The notes below the pieces were generated by a model that saw only the letters and a program-made list of their open reading frames with translations, was not told the DNA's origin and ran no database searches. Source: Patiria pectinifera (lineage: Eukaryota > Echinodermata > Asteroidea > Valvatida > Asterinidae). Taken from it: 64,000 nucleotides of DNA. The DNA lies in assembly GCA_029964075.1 (NCBI GenBank), contig CM057150.1, positions 5,433,717-5,497,716 on the forward strand. The letters are read 5' to 3'. Below, piece after piece: positions 48,130-64,000 of the stretch (the first letter of the stretch is position 1; each line of letters begins with the position of its first letter). Both the position numbers and the translations under genes were made by a program.

Positions 48130-48787
48130 CGGGTCCAAATGTTCCCCAGTCCCTATATTCCCCAGTCCCTATATTCCCCAGTCCCAATGTTCCCCAGTCC
48201 CTTGGTTCCCCAGTCCCAATGTTCCCCAGTCCATATTGTTCCCCAGTCCCTATGTTCCCCAGTCGCAATGTTCCCCCAGTCCCTTTGTTCCCCAGTCCCT
48301 ATGTTCCCCAGTCACTATGTTCCCCAGTCCCAATGTTCCCCCAATCCCTTTGTTCCCCAGTCCATATGTTCCCCAGTCCCTATGTTCCCCAGTCCCTATA
48401 TTCCCCAGTCCCAATGTTCCCCCAGTCCCTTTGTTTCCCAGTCCCAATGTTCCCCCAGTCCCTTTGTTCCTCAGTCCCTATGTTCCTCAGTCCCTATGTT
48501 CCCCAGTCCCTATGTTCCCCAGTCCCTTTGTTCCCCAGTCCCTATGTTCCCCAGTCCCTATGTTCCCCAGTCCCTTTGTTCCCCAGTCCCTATGTTCCCC
48601 AGTCCCTATGTTCCCCCAATCCCTTTGTTTCCCAGTCCCAATGTTCCCCCAGTCCCTTTGTTCCTCAGTCCCTATGTTCCTCAGTCCCTATGTTCCCCAG
48701 TCCCTATGTTCCCCAGTCCCTTTGTTCCCCAGTCCCTATGTTCCCCAGTTCATATGTTCCCCAGTCCCTATGTTCCCCCCTGTCCCT
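48130..48787. repeat. 16-bp minisatellite, about 40 units
   Basis: The unit is GTTCCCCAGTCCCTAT with T, A or G variants at the third-last positions and occasional extra C. Two blocks of roughly 190 bp (about 48412-48600 and 48620-48790) repeat the same variant order, so the array also has a higher-order period. Three overlapping frames of over 220 codons are artefacts. Confidence 0.95.
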
Positions 48788-53284: not shown

Positions 53285-54429
53285 AGCATGCATGGGTACG
53301 AGCGAAGCCTAAAACCCCCAGAATAAACAGAGGCGTAGCAAGCGGAGGGGGGGGGGGGGTAAGGGGATCCCCCAATATTGCGATTATCTTCAGCCATGAT
53401 GTATGCACTTGTAAGGAAGAAGAAGAATATTCTGTAAAAGACTGCCCTTCCAATCAAGTGCCCTTTTCACCAGCGTTTAACCCCCCCTCCCCAATATTTC
53501 TTTAAAAGTGCCTTTTTTTTAACAAGTTTTTTTTTAACAAGTGCCACTTTTTTTTTAAACAAGTGCACTTTTCATGAGCTTAATTGTGCTTAAAAATCTC
53601 ATTGACTCCTTTGTACAAAGAAATCAATGAGATTTTTAATACATTCAAATACACGTACAATTCACATTTTTTTCATGTCATGATTTAACACGTTTTAAAA
53701 AACATCAAGGTAAGTTTAAAACATTGGGTGCGTGTTGGTTACGGGTCCCATGTCTCTTGTGGTCTGGTCCGAGTTGATCTAAGCCCGAGTTGGGCTGGGG
53801 CCGACTTGGTCTTCCTGGGTCCGAGTTGAGAAGGTCCGGACTCCGGACCGGGTTGACTCGAAGCCTTCCAAAAAACCAGCAAGCCTCGAGAAGTGCACCA
53901 GTCTAATTATCTTTGGCACTTGTGGTCAACAATAGTCTGTTACCCAGAGCCTAGCTTAATTTCCATGTTTTTCGTGTTGGTTTTATGCGGGTACCGTGTA
54001 CACGGTGTGTGAGGATCGAAACACCGACCGTCGTGTGCAATCATTGGTGAATAACAATGTAATTCAATGCTTTGTGTGTTTTGGTAATAGTTGCGCTTAA
54101 ATACGATGGTCATGATGGTGTAGCCATCAGCTTGTAATCCCTAACTTTGTTGAACACACATCTGCACATGAACGAAGTGGCTATCGTTACGGCAGTCGTT
54201 GTTTAGCGCCCTCTACGATACTTTATTGATACGCACGCAGGTATATAATTATTTGTTTCCCCACGTTTTAGTCATGGAGGAAGGAATTAACAGGAGTTCG
54301 AACGACCATAGGATCAAAGGTTCAGGGTTCGTTGCCGCGGTCGTAAAAACAGCAGCAGTCCAGATCGGATAAACACCCGCGAGCGCTATCAGTAAATCAA
54401 TTAGCGGTCGCGACCGCAGCCCGGACACT
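53285..54429. other. No gene seen
   Basis: Begins with poly-G and poly-T low-complexity sequence (53345-53560), then a palindrome AATCTCATTGACTCCTTTGT with its inverse at about 53595-53640. It was searched for a left transposon end of the PHD/transposase pair and none was recognised. Confidence 0.4.
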
Positions 54430-54488
54430 CGCCGCAAAGCATTATGGGATTGCCACGCATGCGTACTGCGCCCGCGCCATGTTGTAAA
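54430..54488 (+). promoter_or_regulatory. Promoter-like motif cluster before the PHD gene
   Basis: Three motifs known from TATA-less animal promoters follow one another. GCATTATGGGATTG at 54439-54452 is close to a reversed ZNF143/Staf site. CGCATGCGTACTGCGC at 54456-54471 is close to an NRF1 site. AAAATGGCGGC at 54486-54496 is close to the YY1/short-leader initiation element and contains the preferred start codon. Motif identity is by eye, and use as a promoter is inferred. Confidence 0.5.
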
Positions 54489-56720
54489 ATGGCGGCGTAC
54501 GGTAAGGACGATTTTGTTACGGGCTCCGATTTGAGCGATTTAAGCGACGTTTCTGACGAAGAATTCGATGAAAATGAGGTGGCAGAACTCGACTACGAGT
54601 CCGAAGATGACGGTCGGCAGTATTGTGTGTGTGGGGAGCCTTCAACCATGGAGATGATCGCGTGCGATGATGATCAGTGCACCATTGTGTGGTGGCATTA
54701 TAGCTGCGCCGGAGTTTGTGCCGATACAATCCCAGACACCTGGGTTTGTAGTCGCTGCCTCCCTGGAACGACTGAAGAAATAGGTAGGCCTACGTGGTAA
54801 AAGTATAGCTAAGAAAATAAACAGAAGAAAAAAAAACTTCAGTGATGTTGGTCAACATGAAAAATTGTGACATGTATTTTTATTTTGGCTAAAAATAATT
54901 CCTTCTTTCGCTGTCGTTAGTGTCAGTTATTGTTAATATTTTTTATATTTATGCCCACTTGAATACTTGCCAAGCACCACAGTTCAATAAAAAAAAAGTT
55001 TGAAAGATATAGATATGCAATTTCATTAACAAAGATGGATGTAGGCCTATAATTTAGTTGGAACCATTTTATTTTACAGAGCATCTCATCCAACATGTCT
55101 CCAAGACTTATTTGTTAAAAAAACTTTTCCACACAGATTCATCTTCTGGTCCTGATCCTACAGTTTCAAGACCACCTCGTTCTCGGAAAACCAGACAGAA
55201 ACCAAAGAAGACATCTGAGACTACAGATGCAGTGACCTCGGACGCACAGCCATCTGCCAAAAAAGACAAAAAAGCTCGAAAGCCTCCAAAGCCTGGTAAG
55301 TAGTTATAATTCATACTTCATGTCTTAACATTTAACAGAAATGCATGTTTTGAATACATGTATGTGTTTGGGGCATTTGTATCTCCAAAACACTATGTAC
55401 ATCATGTACATACATGAACATAAAATCTCGATAAGGCAAATCTCAATGGAACGAGCTCAAAATTTGAGTTAAGCAGAAATTTGAGTTAAGAGAAGTTTTA
55501 TCATTGTTATATTTCTGAAGGGAATATATTCTTTGTTTGGCTTAACAGGAGTTTTAAGTTATCAGAGTTTGACTTATTGAGATTTCATGATATTTAAATA
55601 ATTAAAGTTTTAAAATCCACAATCCTCCTGCCATGTTTAATCCTATGTATGCACAATGTAATAATATAATTTTTCAATCATTTTGTTTGCAATAGCTGTA
55701 GAACGTCCCGAGGCAAAGTTCCGTGAAGTTGATGCACTTCAGAAAGCCAACCATTACTTCACGTCTGGACTACAGCAGCTGCAGCAGCACCCAATCTGCC
55801 TTGGAGTCTACCCCACCGCAGTCTGCATGCTGAGTCTAGTCGCGAGCTTGATGGCCAAGACCAACACCGAAGCATTGCAAGATTTCTACGCGGCTACAGT
55901 TAGCGGATTGTGGTTGGTCATAACAGCCGGAGATTCTAAGTATCTTAAACCAGAAGGCTATGAGATTCTTTGGCGAGCCTTTCACAAGTATAGACTGGAG
56001 GTAAACGATAAGTGGACAGAACTTTTGCAAGCCATGGGACTGTACAGAGAGGGGCAGCATGTCCACCTTGTTTGCCAATTTCTATTGCAGGCAGTTTTAC
56101 AGGCTATCATTGAAGATAGGAATAAACAAGATAAACCCATTGATAACCCAGCTGAAACAAAGTCTGAGAATTTAAGTCCTCAGGAGGAACAGGTTTTGAG
56201 ATATGTATCTGGATATATTCCATTTTCTCTGTTCAAAAACTTAAATAAACAAAAAAATGACACTGCTATGACATACTGTAAGTTCCTTAAATCCTGGAAA
56301 GTAGACTGTAGTGATGAAACTGCTAGGACATTTCTCCAATACACAAACGACTGGATTGATAAACAAAATCGTGGTGGGTTATTTCGTGTGTCTGATGGCG
56401 TGTATTTATTGTTCCGAGCCATGGAGCAGGAGACATGCAAGTATTTGACCAAGAATAATCTAAAAACATTTCAAGGATGTGATATTCAGAGCACGCTTTT
56501 GAACAATATTAAAGGTAGTCATCGAGTACAAACCTACTGGTGTAGTCTAACACAAGGAAAGATAACAGGGGACACTTCAACAAACTTACTGAACATGACT
56601 GTGAAGAAGTGGATTAAAATCAGAGCAAAAGCTTTCATCAATGTGTATTTAAACTTGAAGAAAGCAACACATGGAAATGTTGGGAAAAAAGCAGAAAAAG
56701 CTCTGCGTAAGGATCTGTAA
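54489..56720 (+). CDS. PHD-finger protein, three exons, partner of the adjacent transposase
   Basis: Three exons join in frame: 54489-54783, 55080-55295 and 55696-56720. Both introns are GT-AG and phase 1, and the split codons rebuild Glu99 and Ala171. The product is 511 residues. Residues 1-43 are strongly acidic. Residues 45-90 form a Cys4-His-Cys3 PHD finger (CVC, CDDDQC, WWHYSC, CSRC). It resembles ING PHD fingers and keeps the Tyr, Met and Trp positions that form their H3K4me3 cage, so methyl-histone binding in the nucleus is inferred. Residues 120-170 are a basic, Ser/Lys-rich linker. Residues 171-511 are a largely helical domain I do not recognise, with a VLRYVSGY motif at 337-344 reminiscent of the YxAGY motif in some transposase C-termini. 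An in-frame ATG at 54444 is also possible. I prefer 54489 because it sits in an AAAATGGCGGC context and promoter-like motifs lie between the two ATGs. It converges on the transposase gene. Confidence 0.88.
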
Positions 56721-56872
56721 ATTCTGATACATATACATCGTACTTTGCAAGTAAATCAAGTGTCTGGATTCCATGTCTCAATTGTAATTGTAAGCATGCT
56801 ACCCAACAAGCTGATACACCAGTTCACAAAATGCATTACTATATTCTCAGCGGCTTTTTGTTATCATTTAGT

Positions 56873-57034
56873 ATTAAAGGGAATTAGATGTACAAGTAGC
56901 GATACTCGTTGAAAGTTATACAGATATGCAATAACATTTCAATGTTGACAGCTGACAGCTTCGAAGTACAAGTGCTGTACATATTCATTGTTAATGTAAT
57001 TGTATCATTAATACAGTACATGTATACTAATAAA
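56873..57034 (+). promoter_or_regulatory. Candidate polyadenylation signals of the PHD gene
   Basis: ATTAAA at 56873-56878 and AATAAA at 57029-57034 are the first two poly(A)-signal-like hexamers after the stop codon at 56720. Either would give a 3' untranslated region of about 160-330 bases, ending well before the convergent transposase stop at 58160. Confidence 0.45.
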
Positions 57035-58159
57035 GGTTTGATCGCAAACATGCCTTTGTAGATGCAATGTGACATATTTTTTTCCTCCTTTAATATGCCC
57101 TGTACTTAATACCCAAATTATTATTACATCTGTACAATGTATTTTGAATGGTGCTTCTGTACATTTTCGATCCTTTTCATTGCAGCGGCCATCGTGTAAC
57201 TGCTTTTTCCCAAACAGAGATTCACGCAATACAGTGTATGAACATTTAAACTCACTGAATTAAACAAACACTAACAGCAAGGTATCATTTGATTTATAAA
57301 TGTCTCTATTTTGTTAAATCAACCTTTGGAATGTTCGCTTTCTATCAGTAGTACAAGAAGAAATGTCAAGATTCTAATCACTTTTTCCCCTGTGATAACA
57401 CATGGGAATGAAAACTGTATAGCTATATATTACAATACTTTGAATTCATATACATGACAGACTTCGTACAATCCCTCATGTCTCAGATGACACTCCCATG
57501 TTACTCCAACCGATATTTACAAATGTATAGTTTTGTAGAGTAACCATGCCAATGAAACAATTTATGAAAATTAAATCCATGTTGTACAAACTGTGGCAGA
57601 AAGTGATGCATTAAAAAGGAATATGAATTGAAGGATCCTCTTAATTAAATTCTGCGTGTCAGTTATTTTACAGGTTTACTGCAACCACTTATGATATGAC
57701 TCCTAAAAAACTCAATGAGGAATGGCAATTTTTGGGGGTTCATCATAATTGGCATACACTACACAAGAAAGCTGAACATTTTAGGATTATTGGAAGCATA
57801 CGTTAAAGTCGAAAGAATCAAAATGAGCATCAAACCACTGTTGTTTGACGGAATCAGATGTTGAATCTTGCAGTCCTTGCACTGTATTTTTTTTACCCAA
57901 TGTGAGAAACATTTGGTCTCTATATCATGCATGATATAAAACATTATTTTGGGAAAGAATGTTGCAACCTGGCGCCACTTTTTTCTTAAAACATCATCTC
58001 AATAATGGTTAGTCATTATGAAAATGTTGCAAAGCCATGAATCTGGGGCCGAGAAAACTTTCCAATATTGTAAGGAAATACACAATTTCTTTTTGTAACC
58101 CTCCATACACTTTGTACACAACCGCTGAAGTGGCATCTGGATACTACATTCTTTCCTTA
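57035..58159. other. Gap between the convergent genes
   Basis: AT-rich sequence holding the presumed 3' ends of both genes. I see no open frame with domain character. No clean AATAAA for the minus-strand transcript was found close to its stop. Confidence 0.5.
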
Positions 58160-61100
58160 CTATCTCCGAGGAAGAGGTGTGCTATCAAGAGCAGCCTTAT
58201 CATCTGCACCCTGTACTTTGCAGTTGCCTCTCTTGGATGCTTTGATGCAGCTAGATGCTACATACAGGGCCTGCATGTTATGACCAAACTGCTCCACCGT
58301 CGGATTATCGCTACAGCCACCTGTGCCACGCTGCTTGCTAAAATACTGCTCTAAAGGATCCTGATTAAATTTCTCGCTGAGAAGAAACTTAACACCAGGA
58401 ATCTTTAACAGCAGCCTCCCCATCTCGACAAATGAATGCACTGAAACAGAAAATCCAAAAAAGGGATTTGTGTTAAACTTTGAAGAGCCAACTGTCGTGT
58501 ACACATGTATGCATACACTGTACAAACAATGTCAAGACAAACTCCTTAGGTACAGCAATTCCTTCCTCCATGGGTACAGCATGCATGGAGGAAGGAATTC
58601 CTTCCTCCCTGGTTACAGCAAACAAAAACCTTGGTCCCGACTGTGTATTTACATGTCATCGTGTCAGTGCAACAAAGGTTGTATCTCGACGTCCATTTAC
58701 TTTGTGTGCACATCCGGGTTATATTAAGCAAGATACAACCTTGTGACATTATTAAACTGGAGTTTCGTGTAAGTGCAATTTTAGAGATATGACCTTGTTG
58801 CAGAGATGACTTTAAAACAAAAAGGGAAATGATTCAAGCAAACCATTGCTCCCAGATTTCGTAAAATAAAACAAGACTGTGACATTCTACATTGAAGTTT
58901 TACAGTTACAATTAACTGCATTCATTGGAAATATAGTTCACAATGTATATGGTATTAAACACACACACACACACACAGGATGGATTGATGGCAGTTTTTG
59001 GTACCGTTTCTAAAACACTGTTGATCTAACCTGTTATTCTCATCCCCTTGAGAGTTTCCTTGCTGAGGATCATCTTCGCCTTGGCTGTCTTATCCAGGGC
59101 TGGGTGTGACTCGACTTCAGCCTCCCATTCATCAAGGAAACCAAGAAAGTCGTGCATCAGCCACTGTTAACAAAAAATGAAATCATCTGAAAATTATAAA
59201 TGTAATACCAAATCACTGTGGTAATACAAGACAGTTAAAGTAACACAACAATTGGCATTCATTGAGACATCTTCTACTTACATCAAATCTTTTATCCTCA
59301 GCACTGATGTAAGGTTCCAAGTTGGGCTTCCTGAGACGAGCGCAATCGTAGGCATTGGAGACATTCAGGCAGTCAAAGAAGTCATCAATGTACCTGATGA
59401 ATTTGATGGTGGACTCCAGACCAACCTTGCCTGCCTTCATCTGTGCATCAAGAGTGTTGGCAACCGTGGAGCTCATAACCTAAAAAAGAATTAGAATGAT
59501 TATACTTCCTGTTTCACTGTCTGTACACACTGGAACTGTAGGTTGTGACGGTACATTTGCCACCTTAGCATAAACAATGTTGCCACCAGTGGGCCAACAG
59601 ACTTCAACGCTGCAACTGTTTTCTTAATTTCTAAAACAAAAAAATCCCAATAGATTTTGATGACCGCTTTGCTTTGTAAAAATTTGCAACTTCAGAATTT
59701 ATGACCTTCTGGGGTTCCCATGTTTTGAGTGCTTTTAAAAGGGGGATTTTTAAGCATGTGTTCAATCATGCAATAACTTAAATCATTTTTTTTGCACCAG
59801 TACGGAGATTAATTGGTAAAATCAAAACCATGTCAAACTAAAAGCTTACCTGTGCAGCCATGTACACCCGCATTCTGAGGGACGGAGTTAGGTGCAGATG
59901 TTCATAGGTTATCTTGTGCAGGCGACGGAGACCCGGTGAGTGGCGATCCAAGCCGACATCCCACTCATACAACTGAAGGAGTTGCGTCCACTTGATGTCT
60001 TGCTTATGGTACTATGAAAGAAATACACAACACAGCCCACAAAATAAATAGATGTACTTAATAGCGCAAATATCACTTAGGTGTTTGCATCAATTTCAAA
60101 CAATTCTATGGACGACAGAGAGCATTCTGAATTCGATTTTGTAAACATTTCTCAGAAATTTATAGTTTCTTTTTAATTATAACCTTTTTGATGCATGTGG
60201 GGACTACTGTATGATTAGATAATTTTAGCATCCCATACCCAAGCACTCCTTAAAATAGATTTCTGTTTAGATTTTTTTGTGTATTTTCTTGCGGTTAATA
60301 TACAAAATATGAAAGACAAAATAAATCAAACATGAAACTCACGCAGAGTGTCCTTGTCTGCCGATTGTATCCTGAGTTTTCGAAGTTGTTCCTTGTAGTT
60401 TTCAGTAGATGGGGAACATCACACAGGAAAAAGATTTTCCGGTTTGGGTCAAAGGGATTCGGAGTGCAATACGTTGGAACACTTGTCTCAGAACTCTCTC
60501 CGTGTAGCCGATAGAATTTCCTATTTGGAGAGGCTCCATCGGACACCAAAGCCCGAACCTTCAGCCCAGCTGTTTCTAACCACAAAACAGCTTCCCACAT
60601 GCACGGGTACAACTGGTCGCCTGTGATGCCGGTAGTTGGGAAATACGCCACTGGAGCACGTAAAGAACTGAAAATGCCCCTCACCATCAGAACCATGACA
60701 TGAGTTGCTATAGGTGGCTCCTCGTCTCCTCTGCACCTCCTTTCAAAAGCAGCAATCTCGTTGGCCACACTCCCCAAATCAGTGAAACCCATGATTTTCC
60801 CAGACCGCACAGAGAAGGCCAAGCCTGCCTTCACCTTCATCTCATCAAATAGAAGAGACACATTGCGTTCGAACTCAGGAACGGTCTCCAGATGCCAGTC
60901 CTGATAAATCCTAGCAAGCATAGAGGCATTAAACCCTGTAGTGAGGCTGGCAAAATGGCTGTATGAATGCAGCGTGCTCGGGTGGGGTAGCTTAATAAAG
61001 CCTGAATCACGAAGAAGACCATACCCTGCTGAGGACTTGCTCTGAAGGGCAATGCACCATCTGATAATGGCAGGATGCCATCGCATCTGTTTGCCCTTCA

Positions 61101-62160
61101 GAGCCGACTCCTTTTGCTGTTCCCATAACAGCCTTGCTGGGGAGCTCAACCCAAGGATTTTCTTCATCTCGTCATCACAATCACCTACTGTCGCTGATAA
61201 CTGCTTATGCTGAATTCCATCAACTGCCACATTCTCCTTTTCCAGCATGGAGGCTACTTTGTCCTTCAAGGCTAGACTTCGCCGTTTCAGGTTTCTCCTT
61301 TCGGTCTGCAGAAGAGACACTTTCTGTTGAAGCTGTTGATTTGTCAAGTTCTTGTTTGGAATTGTTGAATCGACGGACACATCCTTGAACAACTTTCCTT
61401 TCTCCCGACTTGCAAGGACCATCAAGTCACTCCGATGAATCCTGCACACATCACACCGGGGCCTATTACTAAGAAGGAGACATTTGATGTGTCTAATTGT
61501 TCCCTGACAGTAGATGTCGTTTGCTGTAATCCTGATTGGCATCTGACCTTCTGCCCCCTTCCTTGCCTCCACAACGCCATGAAGATCATTGTTTCCCTCA
61601 CAAACAAATAGTGAAGACAACTTCCGCAGCATATCCTGGAAATCTTCCACACTCAGAACCCTTGGGTGCCCACAACAGACGGGAAGGTCCCCTTGTGCAA
61701 CAATACCAGCTACAATCAAACGCCACGTACAGTCATCAAATACTGTAAAAAACACAGAGGGCATACCCTCACCATCCATCTTCATGACTTGAAGACGACT
61801 ATCTGTCAACCATGTGTTGAGGCCTGCACTTCGAGCTGCTTCCTCCCATTCAACTTTCGCCAACGTGGTCGATTGTGAAGAGATCCCTTCACCCCTTGGA
61901 AAATTAGAAACTTGGATGTTGAGGGAGGCCTTCTTCTTTTTCTTTGTTGCATCCCACCATCTCCGCAACTTCATCTCGCATGGTCGACAAATGTAGGGTG
62001 GATGAATCCCAGTGACATCTTCTTCTACGTTGATGTTCAGGCCAGCTCGAATAATTTTCGAAACATCCTCCTTCCGTGTAGGATTTCGATGTGATTCCGA
62101 ACGCCTCAAAACCCCACATAATCTACACAAGTCTTGCAACTCTGGACCTGACATCTGCAT
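58160..62160 (-). CDS. P-element/THAP9-type transposase with RAG1-N-terminus-like zinc module, five exons
   Basis: The exons, in transcription order, are 62160-60343, 60011-59850, 59479-59282, 59163-59031 and 58440-58160. All introns are GT-AG, the phases match (0,0,0,1), and the product is 863 residues. Residues 11-62 hold CRLCG, then IHP, then CxxC; a second CDVC pair lies at 236-239. Together these resemble the N-terminal zinc region of RAG1. Residues 270-310 are a leucine-rich coiled coil. Residues 344-402 match the helical region preceding the P-element RNase H fold (WHPAIIRWC, LPHPSTL). The likely catalytic residues are Asp439 (LLFDEM), Asp541 (VSDGASPN) and Glu801 (QDPLEQYF). The intervening CDVPHLLKTTRNN and MRVYMAAQVMSS segments match P-element/THAP9 insertion-domain signatures. 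The expected role is cut-and-paste DNA cleavage and joining. An acceptor-like tract ending GCATGCAG lies just before an ATG at 62154, so a further 5' exon is possible. No frameshift or stop interrupts the model. Confidence 0.9.
58554..58605. repeat. Hairpin in the last transposase intron
   Basis: AATTCCTTCCTCCATG is followed a few bases later by CATGGAGGAAGGAATT, and then by another partial copy of the first arm. It lies in the intron between transposase exons four and five. Confidence 0.6.
58957..58978. repeat. (CA)n microsatellite
   Basis: About nine CA dinucleotides, in the same intron as the hairpin, roughly 50 bases from the donor of exon four. Confidence 0.9.
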
Positions 62161-62742
62161 GCAATAAATAGACAGAAAATAATAGAAAACAAAATTGGAT
62201 CAATGCTTCTCAGTGCAGTATTCTAACATTTGCTTGGAAAGTGGAAATGCTTTAAAGCAAAATTGCACGTCTTTACAAAAAAAAATACATAAAATAATAA
62301 TCACATTCCTTTTAACTATATTTTAAATCTTAAAATGAACCACAAAAAAATTATGTTTAGAGAAAAAAGTTAACTGAAATGTCACAATTAAGAAGAAAAA
62401 AAAAATAAACGTATGTAATTAATGATTGAACATGCTGAACTTGAAGTACAAGTTCCGATAAAAAAATGGTGTAAATGGTGAAAGTGTTGATTTGTAGTTA
62501 AAAAATTAAAGAGACTTAACAATCAGACAATGATGTGCATTGGCCCTAAAAAAAAGCTAAGAGTAAGAATAAAAAAAAAAAAAATAAGTAATGAAGTGAA
62601 ATATAGTTCTGTAACCATTTACTTAACCAAATATTTTTTTTAAAATCCCTATCCAAAATAAAAAAGATTTCAGTAATTAACGTTAATAAGAATTATTCAA
62701 AACATTTGAAATAATAATTGTTGCCATTATCAATCATGATTA
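62161..62742. other. AT-rich upstream region of the transposase
   Basis: Homopolymer-rich AT sequence between the transposase start and the palindromic element. It must hold the minus-strand promoter or a 5' untranslated exon. I see no coding sequence or clear core-promoter motif. Confidence 0.4.
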
Positions 62743-63987
62743 TGTCGAGCGCAATTTGAGTCCCCCACGCAAGTTTAAACTTGCGCGCGCAAGTTTAAAC
62801 TTGTGCGAGGGACTCCTGAAGCACGCAAATTACACCGCGCCATTTTAATTTTCGTGCGCAAGTTTAAACTTGCGCAAAGGCGATCGCAACCTTCTTTTGC
62901 GGGCGGGATTTTCATTGATGAAGAATTTTTTTTTTCAAAACACGAGTACATGGAGAAATAATGGAATAAATGAATGAATAAAGAAATAAATAAAAAGGGG
63001 AATTCAATTAGCGTCAATGAAAAGAATCATCAAAGAAGCAGTGCTTATCAGAGAAGTTATTTAAGGGTCCGTGGGGGCGGGGCCAGGGAGGGGACCGGGC
63101 AATTAAGCAATCAACTTAAGCACACGGCGATTGCTTGGAAAGTGTACTGAAGTTGTTCAAAAATGGAGACCAGCTTCAGGTTTTTTGCCTTGTAAACCTA
63201 ATTAGCATTTTATTTATATTGAATGTAAATAATTCATAATTTCCTAGGTGTAAAACCCGCTGTTTACGTAAAAAGAATGATTAAGATCCCTTCAATTGTT
63301 CAAGTTTTGACATTATACAAATTATTTACATTTTTTTAAAAATGCTTATGTATTCTACAATTAAAAAAGTACTTACTCTTAAAAAAATACTAATTAATTT
63401 ATCAATTAATAAATTGTACGGTACAATAATTCATATTGTTTTTAGAAATACTTGCATAACATTTCGAGCGTTGTGTACACTTCAAAAATGCATAATTTGA
63501 AAAAAAAAAATAATGAATGCATTACTAATTTAATTAATTAATTAAATGTATTACTTTAACAAATATTTTTTATTTCAGGCTCAATAATTCATATTAAAAA
63601 AATGTTTACACCCTAAAAATGCTATGCAAATAAAATGGTAATTATTTTAAAAAGTAAATACATTCGCAAATCATTTAATTAATTAATTTAATCAAATCTT
63701 TCAAAAAAAGGAATTAAGGCATTGTCTCCCGAAGCTCAGTGATCGGAGAAAAAAATCTGCTTTAAAAATAATGTTACATATCTGCATTAGTATACCCAGG
63801 GGCAAAATAGTTTAGCGGCTCTGTATGCGTGGCCGGGAAAATCTATGCAGTGCGCAAGTTTAACCTTGCGTGCGCAATTTGTAGCAAGGAAATGAATGCG
63901 CGCGCAAGTTTAAACTTGCGTGCGCGCAGGTTTAAACTTGCGCGCGCAAGTTTAAACTTGCGCGGGGGACTCACTTTGCGCTCGACA
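62743..63987. mobile_element. Inverted-repeat element with CAAGTTTAAACTTG palindrome ends
   Basis: The left end starts TGTCGAGCGCAA and the right end finishes TTGCGCTCGACA, with GAGTCCCCC next to it on both sides. The 14-bp palindrome CAAGTTTAAACTTG occurs at 62770, 62790 and 62859 on the left and at 63905 and 63947 on the right, with one-base variants at 63855 and 63927. ATTA flanks both ends (62739-62742 and 63988-63991), which fits a 4-bp target duplication. The interior is very AT-rich, including runs of TTAA, and has no credible gene, so this is a non-autonomous element. Confidence 0.8.
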
Positions 63988-64000
63988 ATTATAAAACATT

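Follow-up and report, generated by a model that had tools for sequence, protein, structure and literature searches.

How does a transposase with a P-element-type cutting core come to carry, at its front end, a zinc region resembling that of RAG1? The question is raised by a stretch of 64,000 nucleotides from the sea star Patiria pectinifera (contig CM057150.1, positions 5,433,717 to 5,497,716; the whole stretch is called here the window), in which an initial annotation had pointed to such a gene at 58160..62160. This interval spans the gene completely (gene 1 in what follows) but covers only one gene of a larger, two-gene element. The best explanation, to which we assign a probability of roughly two thirds, is that the element is a cut-and-paste transposon of P type encoding a transposase with a ZAD-like/Chapa zinc module, kin to the modules of RAG1 and Chapaev-like proteins, together with a partner protein bearing a PHD finger. 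The same estimate covers, jointly, the movement of the zinc module between recombinase cores, which may have gone in either direction.

Gene 1 lies on the minus strand (62160-58160), is intact and encodes 863 residues in five exons with GT/AG splice ends. Exon 1 (60343..62160) includes the zinc module, a middle part and the N-terminal part of the RNase H domain with Asp439 and Asp541; exons 2 (59850..60011) and 3 (59282..59479) each encode part of the GTP-binding insertion domain; exon 4 (59031..59163) has an identical junction at the related loci L014 and L011, where the intron positions of the gene also match; and exon 5 (58160..58440) provides the C-terminal part of RNase H, Glu801 and the stop codon. 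A Pfam scan of the whole protein identified TNP-like_RNaseH_N (residues 407-552, 60505..60942 on the minus strand; E=9.2e-25), TNP-like_GBD (E=2.4e-14) and TNP-like_RNaseH_C (E=2.3e-8), with PF21787, PF21788 and PF21789 all above their cut-offs. When residues 337-863 were compared with PDB, the P transposase 6p5a was the sole match at E<=10 (E=7.1e-17), and Asp439, Asp541 and Glu801 align to its catalytic positions. These matches bear out the P-element/THAP9 core with its three acidic residues, as proposed initially; the reading frame, the coordinates and the zinc-module residues (CRLCG from residue 12, IHPPYICRPC from residue 52) also stand. In gene 1 the Pfam scan found no THAP domain (863 residues, E<=10), no THAP9_C or Tnp_P_element_C and no RING, and the RAG1/Transib core PF12940 is not among its matches. 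Core and ends place the element in the P superfamily, though not among the canonical P elements, since it has a 7-bp target duplication and no THAP.

Exon 1 runs for 606 codons without a stop and holds the zinc module plus both catalytic aspartates. Since module and core sit in this one uninterrupted exon, their union is not explicable by splicing, and L014 shows the same order, module then core, within one open frame; an exon or assembly artefact is ruled out on these grounds.

The zinc module, with its first and second Cys pairs (residues 12-61; 61978..62127, minus strand), was recognised by Pfam, profile and fold matches. The first 87 residues of gene 1 match the Pfam family RAG1_imp_bd above its cut-off (E=2.3e-5, 24.6 bits; cut-off 23.3) and zf-AD below it (E=0.011, 16.3 bits; cut-off 28); over the whole 863-residue protein the RAG1_imp_bd match is weak (E=0.16), and so is the PDB match to RAG1 of the window module searched alone (E=0.93). 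A 79-residue module query recovered 17 places, the window included, in the genome (613.5 Mb, 1020 contigs), and these furnished an alignment of 14 rows (14 of the 17 places; L010, L020 and L022 left out) and another of ten trimmed rows (10 of the 17). With the ten-row profile PDB ranks 1-3 are all RAG1 chains (21wb_A, E=1.9e-5, collinear from the first to the third CxxC) and no ZAD chain appears at E<=10; with the 14-row profile RAG1 again ranks first (E=0.0022).

Kinship was also assessed against shuffled sequences, 3000 per test, with every cysteine held in place. The ten-row profile gives 40.9 bits to a Chapaev-like module at L010 and 26.4 bits to RAG1 (best shuffle, 15.0), and in the reverse test a two-sequence profile of RAG1 and L010 gives 31.4 bits to L019, 23.1 to L014 and 20.7 to the window, against at most 14.3 in the shuffles; as measured by these scores, the likeness of the window module to the RAG1/Chapaev-like profile exceeds chance. 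The L010 protein is a frame of 340 residues (L010 1849-2868, minus strand) in which a RING comes after a Chapa-like module, and is named Chapaev-like from the Chapa+RING description given in a passage of PMC4411706, not from its core. Its best PDB match is RAG1 (chain residues 142-380, E=6.6e-8), and zf-AD and RAG1_imp_bd score equally on it (23.3 bits each), so a Chapa module can be expected to match zf-AD.

The first CxxC and the HP-x-x-x-C-x-x-C pair of the module are collinear with RAG1. A counterpart of RAG1's third CxxC occurs about 35 residues past the second pair and is kept in seven of the ten rows; it is lost in the window copy, and the rows of L017 and L018 stop before its position. 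The initial annotation had read RPRCDVCR (residues 233-240) as part of the RAG1 zinc region; the residues are present, but they belong to a separate C-x8-C-x2-C-x2-H motif (residues 227-242; 61435..61482, minus strand) and not to RAG1's third CxxC. This motif, with a first spacing of eight or ten residues, occurs in all four rows that cover the region (window, L014, L012 and L023).

The element spans 54273 to 64736, beyond the window end (10,464 bp; 54273..64000, minus strand, lies inside the window), as delimited by inverted ends and flanks in the window and in L025. The inverted ends are about 33 bp long and begin with CATG: the 3' terminal inverted repeat CATGGAGGAAGGAATTAACAGGAGTTCGAACG occupies 54273..54305 (plus strand) and its partner, beyond the window, ends at 64736. 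CATGGAGGAAGGAA at 54273 pairs with its inverse ending at 64736, and the 7-bp target site duplication TTTTAGT stands on either side (left copy 54266..54272; right copy beyond the window, adjoining 64736). Duplications of 7 bp were found in all four elements with both ends read (window TTTTAGT, C19 CTTAAAC, C7 CTCTTAC, L023 GTATAAC), the last being a 962-bp deletion derivative with a duplication of its own. The initial exact run of the repeat pair measures 14 bases in the window (then a one-base indel), 33 in the C19 element and 8 in the C7 element. Each full element also has one subterminal word, repeated inverted at the same two places: TTCGTTGCCGC (172/56), TGGTACCGCT (173/59) and GGCTGCCGCG (172/59); in the window the 3' copy of TTCGTTGCCGC lies at 54328..54338 (plus strand), while its 5' counterpart falls past the window end, 172 positions in from the opposite terminus. 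The length of the longest subterminal word shared by the ends was attained in 1, 6 and 9 of 300 shuffles for the three elements. In the subterminal register 11 of 12 bases agree between the ends of one element and 7-10 of 12 between different elements, which suggests that both ends keep matching while the word changes, as for a site bound by the element's own transposase.

Two further repeats lie within the element. A small palindrome in intron 4 of gene 1 (window positions 58559-58611) is made up of three additional copies of CATGGAGGAAGGAA, one of which carries a mismatch. An inverted-repeat insertion of CGCAAGTTTAAACTTGCG units (62743-63987; 65-nt arms, 92% complementary), in the segment that separates gene 1 from the 5' terminus of the element, was considered as the element's own ends and rejected, as it lies inside the element.

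The second gene (gene 2) is convergent with gene 1 and occupies the space that separates the 3' end of the latter from the nearer terminal inverted repeat. Its stop-free GT/AG model encodes 511 residues in three plus-strand exons: a PHD exon (54489..54783), a basic linker (55080..55295; an alternative acceptor at 55137 gives 492 residues) and exon 3 (55696..56720), a domain with no Pfam match and no convincing PDB match. The PHD finger (residues 42-91; 54612..54761, plus strand) is of ING type (2qic_A, E=1.3e-10, and further ING chains), and the Pfam family PHD_2 scores 17.6 bits on its exon, under the cut-off of 28. ING proteins are known readers of histone H3 trimethylated at lysine 4 (H3K4me3). 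For the PHD finger of RAG2, binding to H3K4me3 is described in PMC9885083; no RAG2 chain occurs among the 50 PDB matches (E<=1) listed for the gene 2 PHD exon, and kelch had no match in the gene 2 exons scanned. The predicted structure of the protein (mean predicted local distance difference test score 52.3; four rows) is too poor for a structure search. Exon 3 was also considered as a split-off P C-terminal domain, but this reading found no support: its profile ranked shuffles over the C-terminus of a THAP-type P element on C13, and THAP9_C had no match at the gene 2 loci either.

Elsewhere in the genome the PHD exon was found in all three elements where it is readable, and exon 3 in 22 pieces grouped into 12 clusters. 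The gene 2 copies that match nearly full-length in one piece (C22, C19:5.62, C19:8.47 and C7:7.60 Mb) face gene 1 in four of four cases, the C7:7.60 Mb copy being decayed (nine stops in the matched frame); a fragment at C7:42.584 Mb is the fifth that faces gene 1 pieces.

Non-synonymous (pN) and synonymous (pS) differences were compared among copies. In the core, pN/pS values between the window and L014, L011, L016 and L019 are 0.197/0.832, 0.214/0.704, 0.251/0.825 and 0.285/0.778, respectively; in gene 2 they are 0.294/0.753 (window-L014), 0.366/0.769 (window-L016) and 0.375/0.737 (L014-L016). The N-terminal part gives 0.397/0.772 for window-L014, and dN 0.02 and dS 0.10 (non-synonymous and synonymous divergence) for L014-L023. 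The lower pN in the core and in gene 2 points to constraint at the protein level and favours the reading of a two-gene transposon.

A number of observations weigh against that reading and are given here with the alternatives to which they lend themselves. On the first alternative, an ordinary ZAD has been joined to a P core, and the module resembles RAG1 only through a shared ZAD-type fold, with no closer kinship. Among the 14 rows, at E<=0.1, RAG1_imp_bd is matched in eight (best 3e-5) and zf-AD in seven (best 2.1e-6). The window scores better to RAG1_imp_bd, as the initial annotation would have it, but zf-AD is ahead in six of the ten trimmed rows (L014, L011, L012, L016, L009 and L017), RAG1_imp_bd leading in three (window, L013 and L019) and L018 matching neither; the zf-AD cut-off of 28 is passed by one member, L012, at 32.1 bits (window row, 15.7 bits). 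Structure prediction of the N-terminal region likewise gave a ZAD-like model: the predicted fold of L014 residues 9-79 aligns with the ZAD structures 7po9_A (root-mean-square deviation 1.9) and 7pok_C (2.2). A Foldseek search of PDB with the N-terminal model returned 645 matches at E<=10, of which none reached E<=0.001, and the absence of RAG1 among those listed says nothing on the fold. Because of the ZAD-like predicted fold and the lead of zf-AD in six of ten members, the module is described here as ZAD/Chapa rather than as a piece of RAG1 proper. What survives of the earlier proposal, a RAG1 N-terminus shared or swapped between unrelated cores, is the kinship with RAG1 and the Chapaev-like module. 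An ordinary ZAD is nonetheless an unlikely source, as the PDB profile search puts RAG1 in the first three ranks with no ZAD chain at E<=10, the closest sequence found is the L010 Chapa+RING protein, for which RAG1 is the best PDB match and the two Pfam families tie, and RAG1's third CxxC is kept in seven relatives.

Gene 2, for its part, could be a captured passenger that takes no part in transposition. Exon 3 has no known relative, and five of the 12 gene 2 clusters have no nearby gene 1 piece among the matches listed; two others share the strand of the gene 1 pieces closest to them (C7:38.68 Mb and a copy broken up at C7:42.58 Mb; identity to the window gene 2, 74-88%). A passenger is, even so, rather improbable given the same facing position in four diverged elements, the PHD exon in every readable element and the deficit of non-synonymous changes in gene 2 (0.294/0.753 and 0.366/0.769 in comparisons with the window copy).

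Also against the two-gene reading stand the saturation of synonymous sites in the diverged copies and the recent copies on C7, which have pN close to pS, as in dead copies (L018-L020, 0.019/0.022; L018-L021, 0.018/0.021). The recent C7 copies (L018, L020, L021 and L022, at C7:41.0-41.6 Mb) are 94-97% alike over 4-9 kb, and residues from about 84 to 237 are missing from their matches to gene 1.

When the remaining loci retrieved were scanned with up to 11 mismatches in 33 allowed, no further convincing paired ends emerged, so that the ends are known from only four elements. That gene 1 is a domesticated host gene and not a mobile element, as its intact window copy and the distance to the next best core match (70% identical among the matches listed) might suggest, is scarcely credible in view of the flanking inverted ends with a 7-bp duplication, the 17 module matches and at least 93 core pieces in the genome, and the deletion derivative with its own duplication.

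The preferred two-gene P-type transposon can be set beside several known systems. With the P element and THAP9 it shares the core, including the GTP-binding insertion and D/D/E residues, and inverted ends, here a terminal repeat of about 33 bp plus a 10-11-bp subterminal repeat. The ends of P elements start with CATG, as do the present ones. For the Drosophila P element, PMC7776569 describes terminal inverted repeats of 31 bp and subterminal inverted repeats of 11 bp. The differences are a THAP domain there and the ZAD-like/Chapa module here, a duplication of 8 bp there and 7 bp here, and the presence here of a second, convergent gene while no P C-terminal domain was found. RAGL/ProtoRAG transposons have in common with the element a related N-terminal zinc module, two convergent genes between one pair of ends and a PHD on the partner. 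They differ in having a Transib/RAG1 core, against a P core without a RING match here; a kelch partner, whereas kelch was not detected in gene 2 and its PHD is nearest to ING; and a target site duplication of 5 bp, as stated for RAGL transposons in PMC8355894, against 7 bp. Because core, kelch partner and duplication length all differ, the element is not filed as a RAG transposon, and identification as a RAGL transposon was rejected. Its layout, as far as the sequences tell, recalls the RAG1/RAG2 pair, a likeness limited to layout and one module, the cutting core being unrelated.

The Chapa module is shared with Chapaev, the L010 Chapaev-like protein being the closest module found; here, by contrast, the core is of P type and no RING was found in gene 1, whereas a RING comes after the module in RAG1 and in some Chapaevs. 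Chapa modules without RING are also reported by Kapitonov and Koonin in the relevant passage of PMC4411706. N-RAG-TP of the sea slug Aplysia, compared by description only, is likewise an invertebrate transposon with a RAG1-N-like protein, and has ends resembling recombination signal sequences. It differs in being described as composed entirely of the RAG1 N-terminal-like part (PMC8355894), which is joined here to a P core. Insect ZADs (zf-AD) resemble the module in the predicted fold of L014 residues 9-79 and in Pfam matches, but the present family has a third CxxC and an HPP word, and sits on a transposase.

In the mechanism that we propose, the zinc module would mainly dimerise and assemble the transposase, as ZADs do, and the transposase would recognise the subterminal repeats, pair the ends and use its RNase H site for cutting. 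The product of gene 2 may bind the transposase and bring it to open chromatin marked by H3K4me3. Such a division of labour would parallel the one between RAG1 and RAG2, but with a different core.

The origin of the RAG1 N-terminal region is an open question, and the module on a P-type core bears on it. According to the account in PMC4411706, Chapa and RING are not encoded in known transposable elements beyond Chapaev and the RAG1-type relatives of Transib. The occurrence of the module on a P-type core, in an element with a PHD-bearing second gene, would demonstrate the transfer of this front end among recombinase families, and the element would offer an independent system for testing how a transposase benefits from the RAG1 N-terminus and from a partner that reads histones. 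A bolder proposal, which we consider a long shot, is that a RAG1-type zinc front and a separate PHD partner reading H3K4me3 form a set that was passed from one recombinase core to an unrelated one, or that came about on two occasions. If so, RAG logic would have a second, independent example in the two-component recombinase of the P-type element, whose kin might be part of the transposon pool that supplied the N-terminus of the RAG transposon. In the literature searched, judged by titles and the openings of abstracts, no P element was recognised as carrying a RAG1-type module or a PHD, an earlier record in Repbase or in the N-RAG-TP paper being possible.

The genome contains P elements of both kinds. 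The THAP domain is described as confined to animals (PMC7776569), and at least 148 THAP matches occur in this genome (best 150 of 250 candidates). Among the matches listed are fifteen divergent P cores (28-37% identity), and 11 of them are preceded, at a distance of 1.2-1.4 kb and in the same orientation, by a THAP match; none is listed, among the best 150 of 250 candidates, for the cores at C13:7501485, C10:9446308, C7:22557873 and C13:3858169. At six elements of the zinc-module family (C22:5.49, C19:5.62, C7:7.59, C19:8.47, C14:42.43 and C14:42.59 Mb) no THAP occurs among the matches listed. By these matches, THAP-type P elements coexist with zinc-module P elements in the genome. Positions 21-119 of the element's 5' end recur with 79-85% identity at nine further loci (C210:21329, C7:19346691, C7:14708022, C1:10573401, C1:10432293, C14:22661714, C13:19710227, C7:15264060 and C106:20064), where it is not oriented as a second inverted end would be; at each of the nine a THAP match precedes it on the same strand, with a P core in between in eight.

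RAG1-core matches occur at five places, and RAG1_imp_bd matches the genome 51 times at E<=1, just two of these matches coinciding with places among the 17 of the module query. The RAG1-core matches at C7:5681019-5681981 and C7:13017885-13019549 have in-frame stops, with a RAG1_imp_bd match adjoining the first; both are likely RAG1-like elements. The match values of the L010 Chapa+RING protein recur at C7:27544. Chapa-bearing and P-type transposons thus appear side by side in one genome, which would have given an opportunity for exchange. Outside the element, at window positions 48139-48778, the 16-bp unit ATGTTCCCCAGTCCCT is repeated in tandem about 40 times, and the array opens three long plus-strand frames.

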